The translations under genes were made by a program, and so were the position numbers. This document shows, piece after piece, positions 15,249-26,577 of a DNA stretch of 50,019 nucleotides. Position 1 is the first letter of the stretch. Each line of letters starts with the position of its first letter. The DNA is from Chloroflexi bacterium OHK40. Lineage in GTDB: Bacteria; Chloroflexota; Chloroflexia; Chloroflexales; Chloroflexaceae. The stretch spans positions 1 to 50,019 of the forward strand of contig SFCB01000284.1 in the NCBI GenBank assembly GCA_004367505.1, given 5' to 3'. Below the pieces are notes generated by a model, which was not told the DNA's origin, made no database searches, and saw only the letters and a program-made list of their open reading frames with translations.

Positions 15249-15911
15249 TTACCCGAGCGGCGCTCGCAGCCAGTTTAGCAAAAACTCCAGCCGCGCGTTC
15301 AGCGCGGTGAGGTAGGTGAGTAGCGCCCCGGCCAGAAAGAACCCGAACGCGACCATCAGCAGCCAGCGGCCAAGCCGGGCCCCCGCCGCCACACCGCGCC
15401 CCAGGACCGTCTCACGCGGCACCGTAAAGTAGAAGGCACAGAGGGTGAGCACCACCCCGAAGACGAGGAGTGCGGTGCCAACCGCCTGAAGCGGATCGGC
15501 GCTCACGGGCCGCGCGGTGTCGAGCAACTGCGGCCCCAGGGTACCCACCAGGGCGCCACCAACGGCCAGGGCGGTGCCCACACCGAAGAGCAGCGCCAGC
15601 GGGATGTTGGCGAGCCAGGAGAGGGCCTGGCGGCGGGTCAGCCGTGTGAGCAGGAGCAGCCCGAGCAGCCATGGGACGAGCCGCAGCGTCAGCGCCACAG
15701 GGTTGCCGGCATCCCGCACAACGCCGAGTGCCGCCGGGCGCAACACCTGATGGTAGACCACCACGAAGGCGTAGCCAAGGGAGACGCCAACGAAGAGATA
15801 CTGCACAACCCGAAAGCCGGGGTTATCGCCGAAGAGCCGGCTAAAGACGAGCAGGGTGAGCAGCGCGGCGACTCCGCCGCCAAGCAGCGTGGCCAGGGCA
15901 TCCGGGCTCAT
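15249..15911 (-). CDS. Multi-pass membrane protein of unknown function
   Basis: A 220-residue integral membrane protein with about six hydrophobic segments, for example ATLLGGGVAALLTLLVFSRLF, YLFVGVSLGYAFVVVYHQVL, LVPWLLGLLLLTRL, IPLALLFGVGTALAVGGALVG, GTALLVFGVVLTLCAFYF and WLLMVAFGFFLAGALLTYL. I recognise no enzyme motif. Its start codon overlaps the stop of the WL(R)-repeat gene in an ATGA, and the MutL-like gene starts 24 bases after it, so the three are almost certainly made together. It could form the membrane channel or platform of a complex with its neighbours; that is inference from gene order. Confidence 0.8.
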   Translation of the reverse strand: MSPDALATLLGGGVAALLTLLVFSRLFGDNPGFRVVQYLFVGVSLGYAFVVVYHQVLRPAALGVVRDAGNPVALTLRLVPWLLGLLLLTRLTRRQALSWLANIPLALLFGVGTALAVGGALVGTLGPQLLDTARPVSADPLQAVGTALLVFGVVLTLCAFYFTVPRETVLGRGVAAGARLGRWLLMVAFGFFLAGALLTYLTALNARLEFLLNWLRAPLG

Positions 15912-18832
15912 GCGGCGCCTCCACCGGACTCAGATCCTCGCCGGCTCGGGCGCACCGCCAGGTTCAGCAGGAGGCCGACCACCAGCAGCCCGAGGAAGAC
16001 GACCACGGCGTACCAGAGCAGCCCTGTGGCCCGACCGATGGCCGCCCCATCGGCCCCGGCGGCGCTGGCGCTGAGCGCGAGCGCCCCGTGCTGGCCCGCC
16101 ACGTGGTACACGTTGGGCAGACGCAGGTAGGGCTGGGCAAGGGGCTCAGCCTCCTGCGGCAGCAGAAAGGCAATCGGCACCTCAGGCGCAACCCGGTGAA
16201 CCTGCTCCATCCATACCTGCACGTCCTGGGGCTGATCAGCCAGCACCACGATCAGCGCGAGATCGCGCACGCCGCTGATCCGTGGGCTGCCGTCGGCGTT
16301 GTTGGCCACAAGCCCCTGACTCGCGTCCTGGCCGTCAAAATCGGAGCGGAGCTCACCGCGCAGATCCTGGGCCAGGCTGCGCAGGGCCAACTCGCCGCCG
16401 GGCCGGTAGCCGAGCAGCACATAGTCGCGCCCGCCGAATGGCACGCCGTTTTCGTTGTTATAGCCCGCCGCCCGCAGCGGCTCGATCAGGTCGAAGGAGA
16501 GGAGCGTTCCCTGCAAGTCGGTACTGACGAGGATCAGCCTGGTCCGATTGGCGACCAGCCGGGCGGTAATCGCCTGCTCGAGCGGGCGCAACTCGGCGCT
16601 ACGCTGGGCGGCCCACTCGTAGGCCACCAGCGCGACATCGTCGGCATCGAGGCTGTCGAGCAGTGCCCCGAGCTCGGCGGCACCAGGCGCGCTGGGCGCC
16701 TCTGTCCCGAAGGGCGCGGTGAACTGCGGGAAGAGCAGGCCGAGGATCAGGGCCAGCACGAAGAGGGCGTAGAGCAACCGGTCGATCCCGATCCGCTGCA
16801 GCAGGCCCGGCGCCCTGGGCGCCGGCACCGCCACAGGTGCCGGATACGGCGATCGGGCGAGGCTCTGCAAGAGGCCCACGGCGGCCACCTGCTCGGCAGT
16901 GCGCTCGTAGCCTGGCCGCAGCGGTCGTGCAATGGCGGCGGCCTGGACGGGCAACTCGGCCTCGTCGTCCTGGTCCGGGCTCCCGAGGCGTCGCAGCCAC
17001 TCCAACTGCTGGCCCTCAGCGCTGTCGCGTGGGAGCTCCGGTTCAGGGACGCGCAGCCAGGGTGGCAACTCGGCTCCCTTGAGAAAGCTGTGGCTGTCGC
17101 CCTCCTCGGCCACCGGGGCTACCGGTGCTGGCCGCCGGATGGGTGTGGCGGGCTCGGGGCGTGGTGGAGGCGCAGACGGCTCATCGGATACACCCCGCAG
17201 CCAGGCCGGCAACCCGGGGTCGCCACCCGAAGCGGGGCCGCCCGACGCCGGATCATCGCCCTGGAGCCACGGCGGCAGATTTCCGGCAGGACGCGAGGGT
17301 GCGCCAGGTGCGGGCGAGGCAGGCGTCTCATCTCGCAGCCAGGCCGGAGCGGCCTCGTCGGACGCGGGGATCTCGCTCGTCCCCCAGAGATCGGTCGCAC
17401 CCGGCTGCCCACCGCCGGCCTCGCGCTCAGAGGGGTCCGGCTCGCGTAGCCAGGCCGGAACATCATCGGCCTCCTCAGACGTGAGTGGCGGCTCGCGCCC
17501 CGCCTGGTGCCAGCCCGGCGAGCCAGTCCCCGATGCGAAGCCCGCTGTCCCCGACTCAGCCTCCCGCAGCCAGTCCGGGATCTCCTCGGCCTCCTCGTCG
17601 CCGGGCCGTACGACGGCAGGCGCCTCCTGCGAGGGTGCAGCAGCCTCCGCCGATGGCGGAACTTCCGCGCCCCGCAGCCAGGCTGGAACCTCCTCATCGC
17701 CCGTCCCCGGTCGCTCGGGCTCCGCGCCCCGCAGCCAGGCCGGCACCTCCCCCTCGCCCGTCTCCGGCCGCTCGGGCTCCGCGCCCCGCAACCAGGCCGG
17801 CACCTCCTCATCGCCCGTCTCCGGCCGCTCGGGCTCCGCGCCCCGCAGCCAGCCTGGCACCTCCCCCTCGCCCGTCCCCGGCCGCTCGGGCTCCGCGCCT
17901 CGCAGCCAGCCTGGCACCTCCCCCTCGCCCGCCTCCGGCCGCTCGGGCTCCGCGCCCCGCAGCCAGGCCGGCACCTCCTCATCGCCCACCTCCGGCCGCT
18001 CGGGCTCCGCGCCCCGCAGCCAGGCCGGCACCTCCTCATCGACCATCCCCGGCGTAGATCCAGGCGGAGCAGCTTGGGAGTCCTCAACATCGCGCAACCA
18101 GGCGGGAACCTCAGCCCCGGCCGTCAGGTTCGGGGCTGGTTCTGAGTCGGCGAGCCACTGGGGCACGCTGGCCGGATCGCGCGGAGGCGCGGACTGCTCC
18201 CCAGAGTCGGCGGCGATCACATCACGCAGCCAATCGGGAACTTCGGCAGCCGATGCCGTATCATTCCGGGGCACACCGGCCGGCCAGTTTGCCGAAACGG
18301 TGCTGGCGTCGGCGCCAGGACCATCATCGGCGAGCCAGCCCGGGACCTGCGGATCGACGAGCGGCTGGGATTCGGGCGCAGGCTCTGCCGCCACGGCCCG
18401 CTCTACCTCATCAACCGAGAGGTCGCGCAGCCAGTCGGGAACACCATCGTCGGGCTCCTCGGGTGTACTGATCGGCTCCGAGAGCGGCTCCGAGCGTGCA
18501 TCCGGGTCCTGGCCGATACTGCGCAGCCAATCAGTGACCCCAACGGGCATCTTGATTCGCGAATTGGTTGTCGGTGGTTCTTCAGGGGCTGGCGGCTCAC
18601 GGGCCGGCGGCTCCTCCGATACCGGCTGGCCCGCACCCAGGCTATTGAGCCACGCAGTGGCGCCGGAACTCGCGGAGCGCCCGGGCGGCGGCTCAGGCGC
18701 AGCCGAGTCTACCTCGCGCTGCAGATCGCGCAGCCAATCCGGCACATCGTCGGCAGACGGCGGGGCCTCGCCGGGACCAGCCGGACGCCGGGGGAGCGGC
18801 ACATTGCGGAGCCAGGGCGGCAGGTGTTCCAT
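15908..18832 (-). CDS. Large WL(R)-motif repeat membrane protein
   Basis: This 974-residue protein has about 23 short motifs of the form P-x-W-L-R-[DG], spread over residues 1-650 between Pro/Glu/Ala/Ser-rich linkers. Seven motifs lie in near-identical 19-residue repeats (EVPAWLRGAEPERPETGDE type). A transmembrane helix follows at about 683-705 (LLYALFVLALILGLLFPQF), then a folded extracytoplasmic-looking domain of about 230 residues (VALVAYEWAAQRSAELRPLE, then RDYVLLGYRPGGELALRSLAQDL). A second helix is at 938-960. The motif region is probably cytoplasmic and disordered, with the WLR motifs as docking sites. I use the ATG at 18832, where the motif pattern begins (MEHLPPWLRN), two bases after the previous stop. 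Function unknown. Confidence 0.82.
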   Translation of the reverse strand: MEHLPPWLRNVPLPRRPAGPGEAPPSADDVPDWLRDLQREVDSAAPEPPPGRSASSGATAWLNSLGAGQPVSEEPPAREPPAPEEPPTTNSRIKMPVGVTDWLRSIGQDPDARSEPLSEPISTPEEPDDGVPDWLRDLSVDEVERAVAAEPAPESQPLVDPQVPGWLADDGPGADASTVSANWPAGVPRNDTASAAEVPDWLRDVIAADSGEQSAPPRDPASVPQWLADSEPAPNLTAGAEVPAWLRDVEDSQAAPPGSTPGMVDEEVPAWLRGAEPERPEVGDEEVPAWLRGAEPERPEAGEGEVPGWLRGAEPERPGTGEGEVPGWLRGAEPERPETGDEEVPAWLRGAEPERPETGEGEVPAWLRGAEPERPGTGDEEVPAWLRGAEVPPSAEAAAPSQEAPAVVRPGDEEAEEIPDWLREAESGTAGFASGTGSPGWHQAGREPPLTSEEADDVPAWLREPDPSEREAGGGQPGATDLWGTSEIPASDEAAPAWLRDETPASPAPGAPSRPAGNLPPWLQGDDPASGGPASGGDPGLPAWLRGVSDEPSAPPPRPEPATPIRRPAPVAPVAEEGDSHSFLKGAELPPWLRVPEPELPRDSAEGQQLEWLRRLGSPDQDDEAELPVQAAAIARPLRPGYERTAEQVAAVGLLQSLARSPYPAPVAVPAPRAPGLLQRIGIDRLLYALFVLALILGLLFPQFTAPFGTEAPSAPGAAELGALLDSLDADDVALVAYEWAAQRSAELRPLEQAITARLVANRTRLILVSTDLQGTLLSFDLIEPLRAAGYNNENGVPFGGRDYVLLGYRPGGELALRSLAQDLRGELRSDFDGQDASQGLVANNADGSPRISGVRDLALIVVLADQPQDVQVWMEQVHRVAPEVPIAFLLPQEAEPLAQPYLRLPNVYHVAGQHGALALSASAAGADGAAIGRATGLLWYAVVVFLGLLVVGLLLNLAVRPSRRGSESGGGAA
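17667..18042. repeat. 57-bp in-frame tandem repeat (about 6.6 copies)
   Basis: Seven copy starts fall at 57-base steps from 17667 to 18009, and each copy encodes one 19-residue EVPxWLRGAEPERPxxGxx unit of the WL(R) protein. Copies differ by only a few bases, while WLR motifs elsewhere in the gene have diverged linkers. This points to recent expansion of one unit. Copy number may vary between strains. Confidence 0.9.
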
Positions 18833-18834
18833 GG

Positions 18835-19500
18835 TTAGCGATCGAGGTAGGGCGTATCGAAGCCAAGGAGCACACGCACCCCGGCCACGAGGGCGCCGAT
18901 AGCGGCACCGATCAGCAGGCCCCGAGCGCCCGCCAGAGCCACGTAGTCGTTCAGCCACTGGACGGCGACCCCGACCGCTGGCAGCGCGGTCACTGGTGGA
19001 ATCTGGGTCACCAGCACAAGGGCAGCCACGATCACAATCACGATCGCCTCGGGGCTACCGCGACCAAGGGCCCGAAGCGCCGCGCTCAGGGCAAAGAATG
19101 CCAGCAACGCGAGCAGACTACTCGCCAGCGGCTCATAGACCACCCGAAACACCGTCCGGATGGGCACCTCAGCCAGGCTCTCCGGCAACACAAAACCTGC
19201 CCGACCGGGCAGCGGGAAGAAGATCCCCGTCACCACCACCGCGAGCATGCCAACGATGAGCAGCAGACTGTAGCCCCAATCGGCACTGCGGGCCTGCACA
19301 CGCCGGGCATGGGTACCCGCCACACTCACGAGTCCGAGGAGCAGGCCGACCGCTGTGATCACTGCCGCCCAATCCACGAGCAAGCCTGCGAGCGCGGGCA
19401 ACTGGCCGCCAGCACCAGCAAAATCGAGCAGGACGATCAGCCCGGCAACACCGGCGATCAGCACCGCAAGGAGGCGTTTTGGATCGCGTAGCAGCGACAT
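18835..19500 (-). CDS. Multi-pass membrane protein of unknown function
   Basis: A 221-residue membrane protein with about six hydrophobic segments, including LLAVLIAGVAGLIVLLDFAG, WAAVITAVGLLLGLVSVAG, SLLLIVGMLAVVVTGIFFPL, LASSLLALLAFFALSAAL, AIVIVIVAALVLVTQIPP and GLLIGAAIGALVAGVRVLLG. The C-terminus is a short cytoplasmic FDTPYLDR tail. The start at MSLLRDPKRL (19500) is preferred to a codon three positions upstream; neither has a clear ribosome site. It sits between the DUF6754-like gene (gap 108 bases) and the WL(R)-repeat gene (gap 2 bases). No family recognised. Confidence 0.78.
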   Translation of the reverse strand: MSLLRDPKRLLAVLIAGVAGLIVLLDFAGAGGQLPALAGLLVDWAAVITAVGLLLGLVSVAGTHARRVQARSADWGYSLLLIVGMLAVVVTGIFFPLPGRAGFVLPESLAEVPIRTVFRVVYEPLASSLLALLAFFALSAALRALGRGSPEAIVIVIVAALVLVTQIPPVTALPAVGVAVQWLNDYVALAGARGLLIGAAIGALVAGVRVLLGFDTPYLDR

Positions 19501-21480: not shown

Positions 21481-22554
21481 CTAGAGTCCATCGCCGAAGG
21501 ACACCCCGAGACTACGGCCACAGATCACCAGATCGCTGTGCGGGCGCACCGTCTTCAGGTGGCCGGTAGCCTCGGCCAGCGGCACCATCGTGATCTCCTG
21601 CGCGCGCAGGGCGACCATCTCGCCGAAAACACCCTCCTGCGCGGCCTTCACAGCAGCGGCACCGTAGCGTGTGGAGAGCAGGCGGTCGTAGGGCGAGGGC
21701 GAGCCGCCACGCTGGATGTGGCCCAGCACCACGACGCGGGTGTCTTTGCCGGTCAGCTCTTCGAGCTTACTGCCTACCCAGTGGCCGATCCCACCGAGAC
21801 GCCCATCGGAGACGTACATCTCGGTACCGCCTCGGGGTCGCGCGCCCTCGGCCACCACAACGATGCTGAAGGTGCTGCCCGACGCCTCACGCTGGCGCAC
21901 CTTCTCCGCGACAATCTCTATATCGAAGGGGATCTCGGGGATCAGGATGATATCGGAGCCGCCGGCGAGGCCGGCGTGCAGCGCGATCCAGCCAGTATGG
22001 CGGCCCATCACCTCGAGCACCATCACGCGGTTGTGGCTGGCGGCGGTGGTGTGGAGCCGGTCGATCGCGTCGGTGGCCACCTGCAGCGCCGTGTCGAAGC
22101 CGAAGGTCCGGTCGGTACCTGCCAGATCGTTGTCGATCGTCTTGGGCACCCCGATCACCGGCGCGCCCAGCTTATAGAGCTCCATGGCGATGCGCTGGGT
22201 GCCCTCACCACCGATCGTGATCAGCCCGCGCAGCCCGAGCTCGCGGATCGCGTTGACAGCCTGCACATAGGGATCTTCCTCCGGCGGCAGGTCGGTGCGC
22301 CGGGATCCGAAGTGCCCCTTGTTGGTTGTGCGCAGGATGGTGCCACCCCGGGGAAGCAGGCCCTGCACATCGCTGTTGGTAAGGACGCGATAGGACTTTT
22401 CGCCGAGGAGACCCTCGAAGCCGTCTTCGATGCCCAGTACTTCCCAGCCGAGACCGGAGGCCGCCTTCACCACCGCGCGGATGACCGCGTTCAGACCGGG
22501 TGCATCGCCGCCGCTGGTCAGTACACCGATCCGCTGTCGAGCGCTTGTCGCCAT
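21481..22554 (-). CDS. pfkA: 6-phosphofructokinase, group III type
   Basis: PfkA phosphorylates fructose 6-phosphate to fructose 1,6-bisphosphate, the committing step of glycolysis. The 357-residue protein has VLTSGGDAPGLNAVIRA (11-27), GGEGTQ (115-120), PKTIDND (137-143, catalytic Asp141), and EVMGRHTGWIALHAGLAGG. At the two phospho-donor positions it has Gly118 (the ATP-type residue, Gly104 in E. coli) and Lys138 (Lys rather than E. coli Gly124). This combination is seen in group III enzymes that use ATP, whereas PPi enzymes carry Asp at the first position. So ATP is the likelier donor. The start has GGGAG just upstream. Confidence 0.94.
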   Translation of the reverse strand: MATSARQRIGVLTSGGDAPGLNAVIRAVVKAASGLGWEVLGIEDGFEGLLGEKSYRVLTNSDVQGLLPRGGTILRTTNKGHFGSRRTDLPPEEDPYVQAVNAIRELGLRGLITIGGEGTQRIAMELYKLGAPVIGVPKTIDNDLAGTDRTFGFDTALQVATDAIDRLHTTAASHNRVMVLEVMGRHTGWIALHAGLAGGSDIILIPEIPFDIEIVAEKVRQREASGSTFSIVVVAEGARPRGGTEMYVSDGRLGGIGHWVGSKLEELTGKDTRVVVLGHIQRGGSPSPYDRLLSTRYGAAAVKAAQEGVFGEMVALRAQEITMVPLAEATGHLKTVRPHSDLVICGRSLGVSFGDGL

Positions 22555-22707: not shown

Positions 22708-23808
22708 TTATGCAACGTGCTCCAGCCGGTCGCGCAGTACCCGGAGAAACGCGGCAGCCTCCCGGTGGTCAAACACACGCGCATCGTAGCTGAGGGTCAG
22801 GGTGCCCAGGGGGCGCCGCGCCAGGCCGGCGCCACCCACGGCAACGCGCATGGCCGGCGCGGCGACGCTGAGCGCGGCGGCAGTGCCGGGCAACGGCGGT
22901 GAAGCGCTGGCCCAGCCAACACCGCCGGCCAGGCTCACCACGGCGAAGGTCGCCGCAGCCAGATCCGCTACCTCCGGCCCGGCCAGCGCCCGCGCCACCC
23001 CCCTCAGCGTCAGGTCGCCCGCGTCGCGCACCAGGCGCCAGCCCAGACGCCCGCCCTCACCCGTCTGCGCCACCGCCAGGTGGATGCGCCGCCGCAGTAG
23101 CAGCGCGTCCTCGCTCCAGCGGGCGTTGAGCAGGGTATGGGCGGGTAGCAGCGCCGCAACCGCTTCGACCACACAGCTTCCCAGGTCGAGAGGCAGCCCC
23201 AGCCGCGCGAACGCCGGGCGTAGCGCCCTCACCCGCTCCAGAGCAGCGCCCGCATCGAGCTCTACCGTGGCCGTAGCAATCGGCAGTGGGCCCGGTATGC
23301 TCACGCCACCTCCGAGCGCTCGTGGGGAGGGGGCGAATGCTTGCCCGTTGCCTGGCACACGCGCACCGGCTGGGGGCTGGCCGTTGGCCGCTGGCCAGGC
23401 AGCCACGATGGCCCGGCGCACATCGGCAGCGACAATCCGGTTGCCGGAGCCACTACCAGCGAGCGAGGCGAGCTCAACACCGTGGGCCAGCGCAATCCGC
23501 CGGGCCAGGGGCGTCGCGCGCGGGCGCCTCACCGGCGCGGCAGCCTCCACCTTGCCAGTGGGCCGCTGCCCCTCTACGCTCGCCGCAGGCCCAAGCCGCG
23601 CCAGCAACCCACCGGGCGCAACCCTGGCCCCCACGGCGAGCGGCGCCTGGAGCAGCCCCGTGGCCGGCGCGGGGAGCAGCACCTCGGCCCGCTCGGTGAG
23701 CACGATCAGCAGCGGCGCCCCCCCGACAACCGCTTCACCCTCCCGTACCAGCCAGCGCATCACCGTCGCGGCGCCGCCCGGAAGCGACGGAAGCATTACA
23801 TCTTCCAT
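22708..23808 (-). CDS. Degenerate E2-like (2-oxoacid dehydrogenase acyltransferase family) protein
   Basis: A 366-residue protein with the layout of a dihydrolipoamide acyltransferase: lipoyl domain (about 1-75), subunit-binding domain (RATPLARRIALAHGVELASLAGSGSGNRIVAADVRRA), flexible Pro/Ala linker and a CoA-acyltransferase-like domain. Two key residues are missing. The lipoyl attachment site, normally Asp-Lys-Ala, reads TERAEV, so Lys is Arg. The acyltransferase motif DHRxxDG reads DARVFDH, so the catalytic His is Ala and the Gly is His. I checked both by reading the DNA. It cannot work as a normal E2, and no E1 or E3 gene adjoins it. It may be a structural or regulatory remnant, or an adapted scaffold. 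The ATG at 23808 follows AAAGG. Confidence 0.8.
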   Translation of the reverse strand: MEDVMLPSLPGGAATVMRWLVREGEAVVGGAPLLIVLTERAEVLLPAPATGLLQAPLAVGARVAPGGLLARLGPAASVEGQRPTGKVEAAAPVRRPRATPLARRIALAHGVELASLAGSGSGNRIVAADVRRAIVAAWPAANGQPPAGARVPGNGQAFAPSPRALGGGVSIPGPLPIATATVELDAGAALERVRALRPAFARLGLPLDLGSCVVEAVAALLPAHTLLNARWSEDALLLRRRIHLAVAQTGEGGRLGWRLVRDAGDLTLRGVARALAGPEVADLAAATFAVVSLAGGVGWASASPPLPGTAAALSVAAPAMRVAVGGAGLARRPLGTLTLSYDARVFDHREAAAFLRVLRDRLEHVA

Positions 23809-23893: not shown

Positions 23894-26506
23894 TCAGCCG
23901 GACTTCACCGCCTCGGCCCAGAAGGCTTCGACCTTCTGCTTGAGCAGCGCGTGCTCCGGGCGGGCGAGCTGCGGGTCATCGGCGAGGAGCGATTCGGCGG
24001 CAACGCGGGCAGCGTGGAGCAGCCGGGTATCGGCGAGTTGGGCCACCTTCAGGTCGGGCGTGCCGCTCTGGCGGGTGCCGAAGAACTCGCCGGGCCCGCG
24101 CAGCTGTAAGTCGATCTCAGCGAGCTTGAAGCCATCGGTGGTCCGCTCCATCGCCTCCAGGCGCTGCTTCGTTACCTCATTGTCGTCCTTGTCGGAGATC
24201 AGAATGCAGTAGCTCTGGTGTTCACCCCGGCCGACGCGCCCACGAAACTGGTGCAACTGGGCCAGGCCGAAGCGCTCCGCGCCCTCGATCACGATCGTCG
24301 AGGCATTGGGGATATCGATACCCACCTCGATCACCGCAGTGCTCACCAGAATGTCGAACTGACGCTCGCGAAAGGCCACCATCACCTCGTCCTTCTCGCG
24401 CGGCAGCATTCGCCCGTGCAGCAAGGCCACGCGCAGATCGGGGAAGACCTCGCCCTGCAGCCGCTCGTACATCTCCTCGGCGGAGGGCAGGTCCACCTTC
24501 TCGCTCTCCTCCACCAGCGGGCAGATCACGAAGGCCTGGCGCCCCTTCTCGATCTCGCGGCGCATATGGCGGTAGGCCTTCTCGCGCTCAGCCTTGCGCA
24601 CCCAGCGGGTACGGATCGCCTGGCGGCCGGGCGGCAACTCATCGAGCACCGAGGTGTCCAGATCGCCGTAGATGGTCATGGTGAGCGTGCGAGGGATGGG
24701 CGTGGCGGTCATCACCAGCATGTGCGGGTTGAAGCCCTTGTCGCGCAGGCGCTGGCGCTGCTCTACCCCGAAGCGATGCTGCTCGTCCACCACCACCAGG
24801 CCAAGCGAACTGAAGCGCACATTGTCGGTGATCAGCGCGTGGGTGCCCACCACCAGGTCCACCTCACCCCTGGCGATCCCCTCCAGCACACGGCGGCGCT
24901 CCCGGGCCCCCAGGCTGCCGGTGAGCAACGCCACACGTACGCCCTGGCCACCCATATCTTCTGCGTCGCTCATGCCGAGCAGGGCCTTGATCTCGGCCAG
25001 CCGAGCGGCCTCCTCCGGGTCGAGCCGCTGCTTCCAGTCCTCACCCTCAGCGGCTACCCTGGCTTCGCGCGGCACCGCCACCTGGCCAAGCAACCGCTTG
25101 AGGCCCTTGTAATGCTGCTCGGCGAGGATCTCAGTAGGGGCCATCATCGCGCCCTGGAAGCCATTGCCGATCGCCTGCAGCAGCGACGCGGCGGCCACCA
25201 CCGTCTTGCCCGAGCCCACATCACCCTGGAGCAGGCGCGCCATCGGCACGGGCCGGCCCATATCGGCGAAGATCTCGGCCAGGGCCCGCTGCTGAGCACC
25301 GGTGAGGCTGAAGGGCAGCCTGGCCTGCAACTCGGCGTGCAGCTCGGGCAAGAGCCGCATGGCATAGCCGAGCTCGCCCTGCCAGAGGAGCTTGCGCTGC
25401 ACCACGCCGATCTGGATGAAAAGGAACTCGTCGAACCCGATCCGGGTGCGGGCTCGTGCGAGATGCTCCGGGCTGTCGGGGTAGTGGATCTGGCGCAGCG
25501 CCTCGCTGAGGGGCATCAGGCCGGCCCGCGAGCGGACGGGCTCAGGCAGGTGGTCCGGCACGTGCGGGGCCACCGCGTCCACCACCTGCTTCATGACGGT
25601 GCGAGCATTGCGCTCAAGCAGGCCGCTCGTAAGCGGGTGCACCGGCACGAGCCGGCCAGTGTGCAGGGTATCACCATCGGCGACGTAGGGCTCCCACTTT
25701 GGCCCGGCGAACTGCCGCATACCCAGGTAGGCCCCAACCTTGCCGCTCACCACCACCATGCGGCCCACGGTGAGCTGCTTTGTCAGCCAGGGCTGGTTGA
25801 AGAACACCGCCTTGATCGTGCCGCTCTCGTCGCTGAGGCTCACCTCAACTCGCCCGCGCCCGCCGCCAACCAGCCGCACATCCGTCACTTCGGCCACGAT
25901 CGTCTCACTGGCGCCCACCACCAGGTCGGCGATGCGCTTCTGCGAGCTGTAGTCGTCGTAGCGGTGGGGGAAGTGGTACAGCATATCCTCCACCGTCTTG
26001 AGGCCGAGGCGTTTAAAGGCATTGGCGTTGGAGCGCCCGATCCCCGGCACCGCCTCCACCGGGTCGCTCAGGGCGAGCGGGCCGGTACTCACCGGGGTTG
26101 CCTGAGCGCGCGGGGAACGGGCCCGCCGCGCGGGCCTGGGAGCGGCAGAAACACTCTCACCGGGGGAGGCTGCCAGGAGAGCCGGCGGCGGAGTCTCAGC
26201 CGCCTTCCCGCTCCCCGCCTCCTCCGCACCCGCTGGCGCGCCGGGCTGCTGGCGAAAGAGCGCCCGCAGCCCATCGAGGGCCTGGCCCACATTGCTACGG
26301 CGCTCGCGGATCGTCTGCCCGCCGTACCCCTCGAGCAAGGCCAGAGCCGCGCGCACAGCCGGCACAGCCAGGGCACCATTGGCCTCCGCGCGCCAGCGTT
26401 CCAGGAACAGCTCCAGCCCCTCGACGACGGCGGCATCGTCGCATCCCCGGCGGTACTCGGCGGCCAGCACCTTACCCAGGCGGATGATGTGGTCTTTGTC
26501 CTGCAT
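23894..26506 (-). CDS. recG: ATP-dependent DNA helicase RecG with N-terminal extension and insert
   Basis: RecG is a monomeric branch-migration helicase that rewinds stalled forks and processes D-loops and R-loops. The 870-residue protein has an N-terminal extension (about 1-145) carrying a disordered Pro/Ala-rich stretch, then the wedge domain (about 146-285) and the helicase motifs. Visible motifs are GDVGSGKT (428-435), DEQHRFG (574-580), VMTATPIPRTL and QFRGRVGRG. About 40 charged residues (481-521) are inserted between motifs Ia and II. The usual length is about 690-780, so this is longer. I use the ATG at 26506 (MQDKDHIIRLGK). Confidence 0.95.
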   Translation of the reverse strand: MQDKDHIIRLGKVLAAEYRRGCDDAAVVEGLELFLERWRAEANGALAVPAVRAALALLEGYGGQTIRERRSNVGQALDGLRALFRQQPGAPAGAEEAGSGKAAETPPPALLAASPGESVSAAPRPARRARSPRAQATPVSTGPLALSDPVEAVPGIGRSNANAFKRLGLKTVEDMLYHFPHRYDDYSSQKRIADLVVGASETIVAEVTDVRLVGGGRGRVEVSLSDESGTIKAVFFNQPWLTKQLTVGRMVVVSGKVGAYLGMRQFAGPKWEPYVADGDTLHTGRLVPVHPLTSGLLERNARTVMKQVVDAVAPHVPDHLPEPVRSRAGLMPLSEALRQIHYPDSPEHLARARTRIGFDEFLFIQIGVVQRKLLWQGELGYAMRLLPELHAELQARLPFSLTGAQQRALAEIFADMGRPVPMARLLQGDVGSGKTVVAAASLLQAIGNGFQGAMMAPTEILAEQHYKGLKRLLGQVAVPREARVAAEGEDWKQRLDPEEAARLAEIKALLGMSDAEDMGGQGVRVALLTGSLGARERRRVLEGIARGEVDLVVGTHALITDNVRFSSLGLVVVDEQHRFGVEQRQRLRDKGFNPHMLVMTATPIPRTLTMTIYGDLDTSVLDELPPGRQAIRTRWVRKAEREKAYRHMRREIEKGRQAFVICPLVEESEKVDLPSAEEMYERLQGEVFPDLRVALLHGRMLPREKDEVMVAFRERQFDILVSTAVIEVGIDIPNASTIVIEGAERFGLAQLHQFRGRVGRGEHQSYCILISDKDDNEVTKQRLEAMERTTDGFKLAEIDLQLRGPGEFFGTRQSGTPDLKVAQLADTRLLHAARVAAESLLADDPQLARPEHALLKQKVEAFWAEAVKSG

Positions 26507-26577
26507 GCCAGTGCACAGCGTGATTGCTCCACCTGGAACCACCGCCATCCTTCGGTCACATACGCGGGGCGCCCGGC

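Follow-up and report, generated by a model that had tools for sequence, protein, structure and literature searches.

An E2-like protein of the Chloroflexales without lipoyl lysine and catalytic histidine: a candidate E3BP-like adaptor

The pE2 gene and its product

The window (the whole stretch of 50,019 nucleotides that was analysed, from Chloroflexi bacterium OHK40) carries the pE2 (pseudo-E2) gene on the minus strand at 22708..23808. It is flanked on the same strand by recG upstream (23894..26548, 85 bp gap, named from its translation) and by pfkA, encoding 6-phosphofructokinase, downstream (21481..22554, 153 bp gap, orthologue named by Pfam). The gene, of which orthologues were found, encodes 366 amino acids between an ATG start and a stop at 22708-22710. 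An alternative in-frame GTG lies 6 bases 5′ of the ATG at 23808; the ATG is the better start because a Shine-Dalgarno-like AAAGGTGG, read directly in the sequence, precedes it at 23818-23811 of the minus strand.

The product has the order lipoyl-like domain, peripheral subunit-binding domain (PSBD; Pfam E3_binding) and E2 acyltransferase domain, all coordinates being of the minus strand. The lipoyl-like domain (residues 1-74; 23587..23808) was all-strand in the model and lacked the lipoyl lysine: the site read TERAEV, with Arg40 (366-residue numbering; codon 23689..23691) aligned in place of Lys. The PSBD comprised residues 96-131 (23416..23523) and was followed by a disordered linker rich in Ala, Pro and Gly (23290..23415), with pLDDT < 50 at residues 138-174. 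The acyltransferase (CAT-fold) domain (residues 174-366; 22711..23289) was devoid of the N-terminal arm and of the active-site motifs. Its motif read YDARVFDH, with YDAR in place of DHR and Ala343 (codon 22780..22782) at the position of the catalytic His. Two domains scored above the Pfam cut-off (E3_binding, 1.3e-11; 2-oxoacid_dh, 6.3e-12) and Biotin_lipoyl fell just under it (21.8 vs 22.1 bits); the latter was above the cut-off in several relatives and the domain was absent in one genus, g12. A preliminary description of the gene had reported an intact frame with a good start, a subunit-binding domain, Arg for the lipoyl Lys in TERAEV, and DARVFDH for DHRxxDG. Our reading agrees with it on these points, and adds the loss of the N-terminal arm and of a second active-site motif from the acyltransferase domain.

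The AlphaFold model (with six relatives) had a mean pLDDT of 72 and showed three ordered domains, the linker being disordered. Compared with E2 cores, the modelled CAT domain reached Z scores of up to 19.6 at 3.2 Å over 193 residues, the highest (VIA-align) being with the E2b core of M. tuberculosis (6zzn); this structure search bears on the CAT domain and hardly on the lipoyl-like domain or the PSBD. The E2 fold is predicted to be kept in the CAT domain. The second active-site motif, FTIxN-x-G, which we take to correspond to the region of the active-site Ser558 in Azotobacter E2p, was lost, and the loop-helix before it was shortened. The N-terminal arm was considered missing because the Pfam acyltransferase match started at profile position 25-28 in most pE2s with a single match; in other pE2s split matches leave the start of the CAT domain unsettled, and one Chloroflexus member started at position 7. 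Moreover, the C-termini of pE2s did not have the PExLLL tail of PDH/OGDH-type E2s, which was likewise absent from the E2 type on contig C86.

The PSBD was the most regular part of the protein, with E3_binding above the cut-off in 10 of the 10 members scanned and with its arginines retained. Residue 101 in its first helix, presumably equivalent to the E1/E3-contacting Arg135 of Geobacillus E2, was Arg in 32 of 36 pE2 rows vs 21 of 64 E2 rows. Four pE2s of genus g12 (L009, L011, L013 and L014) retained the PSBD and the CAT domain and had lost the lipoyl-like domain; they start near the PSBD, and no lipoyl-like sequence was found upstream.

Distribution, loss of the active residues and selection

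A protein search of the order Chloroflexales (82 genomes), with further searches for divergent members, gave pE2 relatives in at least 37 genomes from all four families: 22 of f1 (the family of the window), 7 of f2 (six genomes of genus g20, and G049), 5 of f3 and 3 of f4, the last count including G063 with contig-end fragments only. The carriers include Oscillochloris sp. ZM17-4, Chloroflexales bacterium ZM16-3 and Candidatus Chloroploca; we take genome G007 to be Chloroflexus aurantiacus, g20 to be Herpetosiphon and g32 to be Roseiflexus-like. In g32 and several f1 genomes the searches for pE2 gave authentic E2s only, owing either to gene loss there or to insensitive searches. In one genome (G021; L033 and L135), the lipoyl-like part was out of frame with the rest of pE2, a possible assembly frameshift.

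Beyond the order, a search of 400 genomes of the phylum gave profile scores of at least 350 bits in Chloroflexales only, and the matches outside the order that were read were authentic E2s with DHR. Some true pE2s score below 350 bits (those of g12, which do not have the lipoyl-like domain, and those of Herpetosiphonaceae), so that score alone does not decide pE2 status, and distant members may exist outside the order. A scan of 85,000 species, which reaches close relatives only, returned six genes with YDAR, all from Chloroflexales, 73 others with DHRxxDG, and one ended by a contig edge.

In a one-profile alignment, in which a few rows represent one gene fetched twice, Lys occupied the lipoyl position in 0 of 30 pE2 rows (those having a lipoyl-like domain) vs 64 of 64 authentic E2 rows. 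The corresponding counts for the catalytic His were 0 of 36 vs 70 of 70; the rows were sorted by the DHRxxDG motif, and the His comparison thus holds partly by construction, whereas the Lys comparison and the tree do not. The lipoyl position of pE2s was taken by R, Q, T, W, S, D, V or H, and the catalytic position by A (27 rows), T (6), S, G or V. A quick tree of 75 rows, in which 43 were authentic Chloroflexota E2s, placed one change on a single branch (SH-aLRT 100) that split pE2s from E2s, with pE2 members grouped broadly by family.

Both residues were thus missing in orthologues of all four families, which form one well-supported clade. The double loss is not due to chance because both losses were found in every relative read, and a recent mutation or sequencing error in the window is ruled out by conservation throughout Chloroflexales. 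The loss is ancient, and pE2 is almost certainly an E2 paralogue that was inherited vertically and is catalytically dead; known E2 chemistry is not expected of it. In common with bacterial E2p, E2o and E2b (PF00364-PF02817-PF00198), pE2 has the order lipoyl domain-PSBD-CAT and, as modelled, the CAT fold; unlike them, it is devoid of the lipoyl Lys, the catalytic His, the Ser/Thr-Asn active-site motif and the N-terminal arm. We did not file it as an E2 because two defining residues, the lipoylatable lysine and the catalytic histidine in DHRxxDG, are both missing.

Purifying selection acts on pE2. In close pairs (Nei-Gojobori), dN/dS of the whole gene was 0.22-0.47, with 95% intervals below 0.65. 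By domain, the CAT domain gave 0.18-0.41 and the PSBD 0.05-0.58; the lipoyl-like domain gave 0.67 in one pair and 0.13-0.37 in six others, and the linker, where computable, had the highest values of the gene, 0.45-0.79. More distant Chloroflexus pairs, for which dS was large or saturated, mostly gave 0.10-0.23. For recG and pfkA beside it, dN/dS was 0.02-0.12, meaning that pE2 changes faster than they do; the dead domains are therefore selectively kept, under a constraint below that of housekeeping genes.

Gene neighbourhood

Across 29 loci, pfkA lay directly behind pE2 in 20, and one more had it 4 kb away on the opposite strand; recG was upstream in 20. The neighbour kept across families was pfkA. 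Six loci, five from f3 and one from f4, had pE2 directly after etfB-etfA on the same strand, at a distance from etfA of 62-483 bp, with pfkA following pE2. An acyl-CoA dehydrogenase gene preceded etfB-etfA-pE2 in five of these six loci, these gene names being confirmed by Pfam in one locus. The ~980-bp gene upstream of pE2 in f3 and f4 had been considered for E1-beta, and Pfam identified it as etfA. The genome of the window holds an acyl-CoA dehydrogenase-etfB-etfA set on contig C282, without pE2.

No E1, E2 or E3 gene was found beside pE2 in the window or among its recurring neighbours in the 29 loci. The genome does encode about four authentic E2s as well as E1s and proteins of E3 type, and its E1-type and E3-type genes all lie on other contigs; the preliminary description had noted that no E1 or E3 gene adjoins pE2. 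We rejected the idea that pE2 is left over from an E1-E2-E3 operon at this site, since neither E1 nor E3 occurred on the contig of the window or among the genes that recur beside pE2.

Other arrangements were also seen. In genus g12 (L009, L011, L013, L014), pE2 was adjoined by the conserved gene that usually comes after pfkA, with pfkA itself missing from between them. In Herpetosiphonaceae (L176:5196-8306 and L144:5928-9314), pE2 was transcribed away from genes for sigma-70 and DUF5667 proteins, and the neighbourhood differed from that in the remaining Chloroflexales. At 15908-18958 of the window (minus strand), a protein of 1016 residues is encoded in which membrane-like segments come after tandem EVPAWLRGAEPERPETGD-type repeats; relatives of varying length were near pE2 in 15 of the 29 loci.

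Proposed role and alternatives

We consider pE2 to be probably a non-enzymatic binding or scaffold subunit. The preliminary description had suggested a structural pseudo-E2 or a new role, a view supported by the two checks that it had called for, as homologues form an order-wide clade without both residues and purifying selection acts on the gene. By analogy, a non-catalytic adaptor working like eukaryotic E3BP, with partners that we infer, has in our estimate about an even chance of being the correct reading. E3BP (protein X, PDHX) is an E2 paralogue with a PSBD and an inactive E2-derived core domain (PMC10156792, PMC7494870). The adaptor was ranked first because a selected PSBD on an E2-type fold is what eukaryotic E3BP presents (PMC10156792), and because the genome has E1, E2 and E3-type proteins. 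The CAT-fold domain of pE2 would dock on the core of an authentic E2 or self-trimerise, and the flexible linker would display the PSBD, which would recruit E3 or E1 as the peripheral subunit of a 2-oxoacid dehydrogenase. In this manner pE2 would alter the E1 or E3 content of the complex, adding no catalytic arm, and the E3BP-like arrangement would have arisen separately in bacteria.

In favour of the adaptor we counted the loss of Lys and His, the single clade, the dN/dS values, the regularity of the PSBD, and the retention of PSBD and CAT in g12. Against it, the missing N-terminal arm and PExLLL tail may prevent the entry of pE2 into an E2 cage, and the etf and acyl-CoA dehydrogenase genes beside pE2 in two of the families point to another partner; the separation from E1, E2 and E3 genes and the evolution faster than that of recG and pfkA also count here. 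It is rather improbable that the order has evolved its own E3BP-like subunit that does without a lipoyl arm and couples 2-oxoacid dehydrogenase components to ETF/acyl-CoA dehydrogenase; the literature searched describes no such assembly from bacteria.

Ranked second, and unlikely on balance, is a scaffold or regulator of acyl-CoA oxidation, in which pE2 would bind ETF or acyl-CoA dehydrogenase, flavoproteins like E3, or sense acyl-CoA in its dead CAT pocket. The five f3 loci and the f4 locus with etfB-etfA directly before pE2 speak for such a role. However, the established partners of the PSBD are the E1 and E3 subunits of 2-oxoacid dehydrogenase complexes, the acyl-CoA dehydrogenase-etfB-etfA set of the window's genome is on another contig without pE2, and the neighbour common to the families is pfkA. 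Somewhat more doubtful is that free pE2 titrates E1 or E3 off working complexes and so lowers their flux. A PSBD without catalytic arm or site, the missing C-terminal tail of cage-forming E2s and the linkage to glycolytic pfkA would suit such a competitor, but that linkage is by itself no proof of regulation, and neither a regulatory element nor data on expression turned up for pE2. An enzyme with new chemistry in the altered acyltransferase pocket is very unlikely: the CAT fold is predicted to be kept and the YD-x-R motif is regular, yet the position of the catalytic His is taken by Ala, Thr, Ser, Gly or Val and not by any one new polar residue, the lipoyl position is variable, and the invariant residues are mostly Gly, Pro and Ala plus the YD-R frame. 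A decaying pseudogene or assembly artefact, which the faster evolution, the failure to find pE2 in many Chloroflexales genomes and the lipoyl-like domain lost in one genus might suggest, is scarcely credible, being ruled out by dN/dS well below 1 and open frames in more than 30 genomes, besides the single clade and stable synteny.

Like eukaryotic E3BP, the preferred comparison, pE2 is an E2 paralogue with a PSBD and a core domain that, by its residues, is E2-derived and catalytically inactive; the fungal E3BP core is also reduced. Unlike eukaryotic E3BP, pE2 is bacterial, forms a separate clade among Chloroflexota E2s and lies outside a PDH operon. It also has no lipoyl lysine, a residue retained in mammalian E3BP. 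At most, pE2 would resemble E3BP in how it works, and we did not file it as E3BP. MRPS36/KGD4, which serves as E3 adaptor in the 2-oxoglutarate dehydrogenase complex of eukaryotes and has no reported prokaryotic orthologues (PMC9974300), is similarly a separate non-catalytic subunit proposed as an E3 recruiter, but it is a different protein and not an E2 paralogue.

A literature search, covering few subscription journals, found no bacterial E3BP, E2 pseudoenzyme or Chloroflexus E2 data; this literature describes an E2 paralogue that binds E3 as a separate, non-catalytic protein as a feature of eukaryotes. Mammalian and prokaryotic cores were contrasted in PMC11700594, and PMC10156792 left open why mammalian complexes retain inactive E2 paralogues. 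An ancient, selected and doubly dead E2 in culturable bacteria, Chloroflexus and Herpetosiphon among them, would allow this question to be tested. For annotation, caution is advisable, as pE2s exceed Pfam thresholds and would be labelled E2 enzymes. A subunit-binding domain also occurred outside any E2, in a contig-start ORF of another contig (L193:78-1100; G000, contig C279), together with an apparent alpha/beta-hydrolase region.
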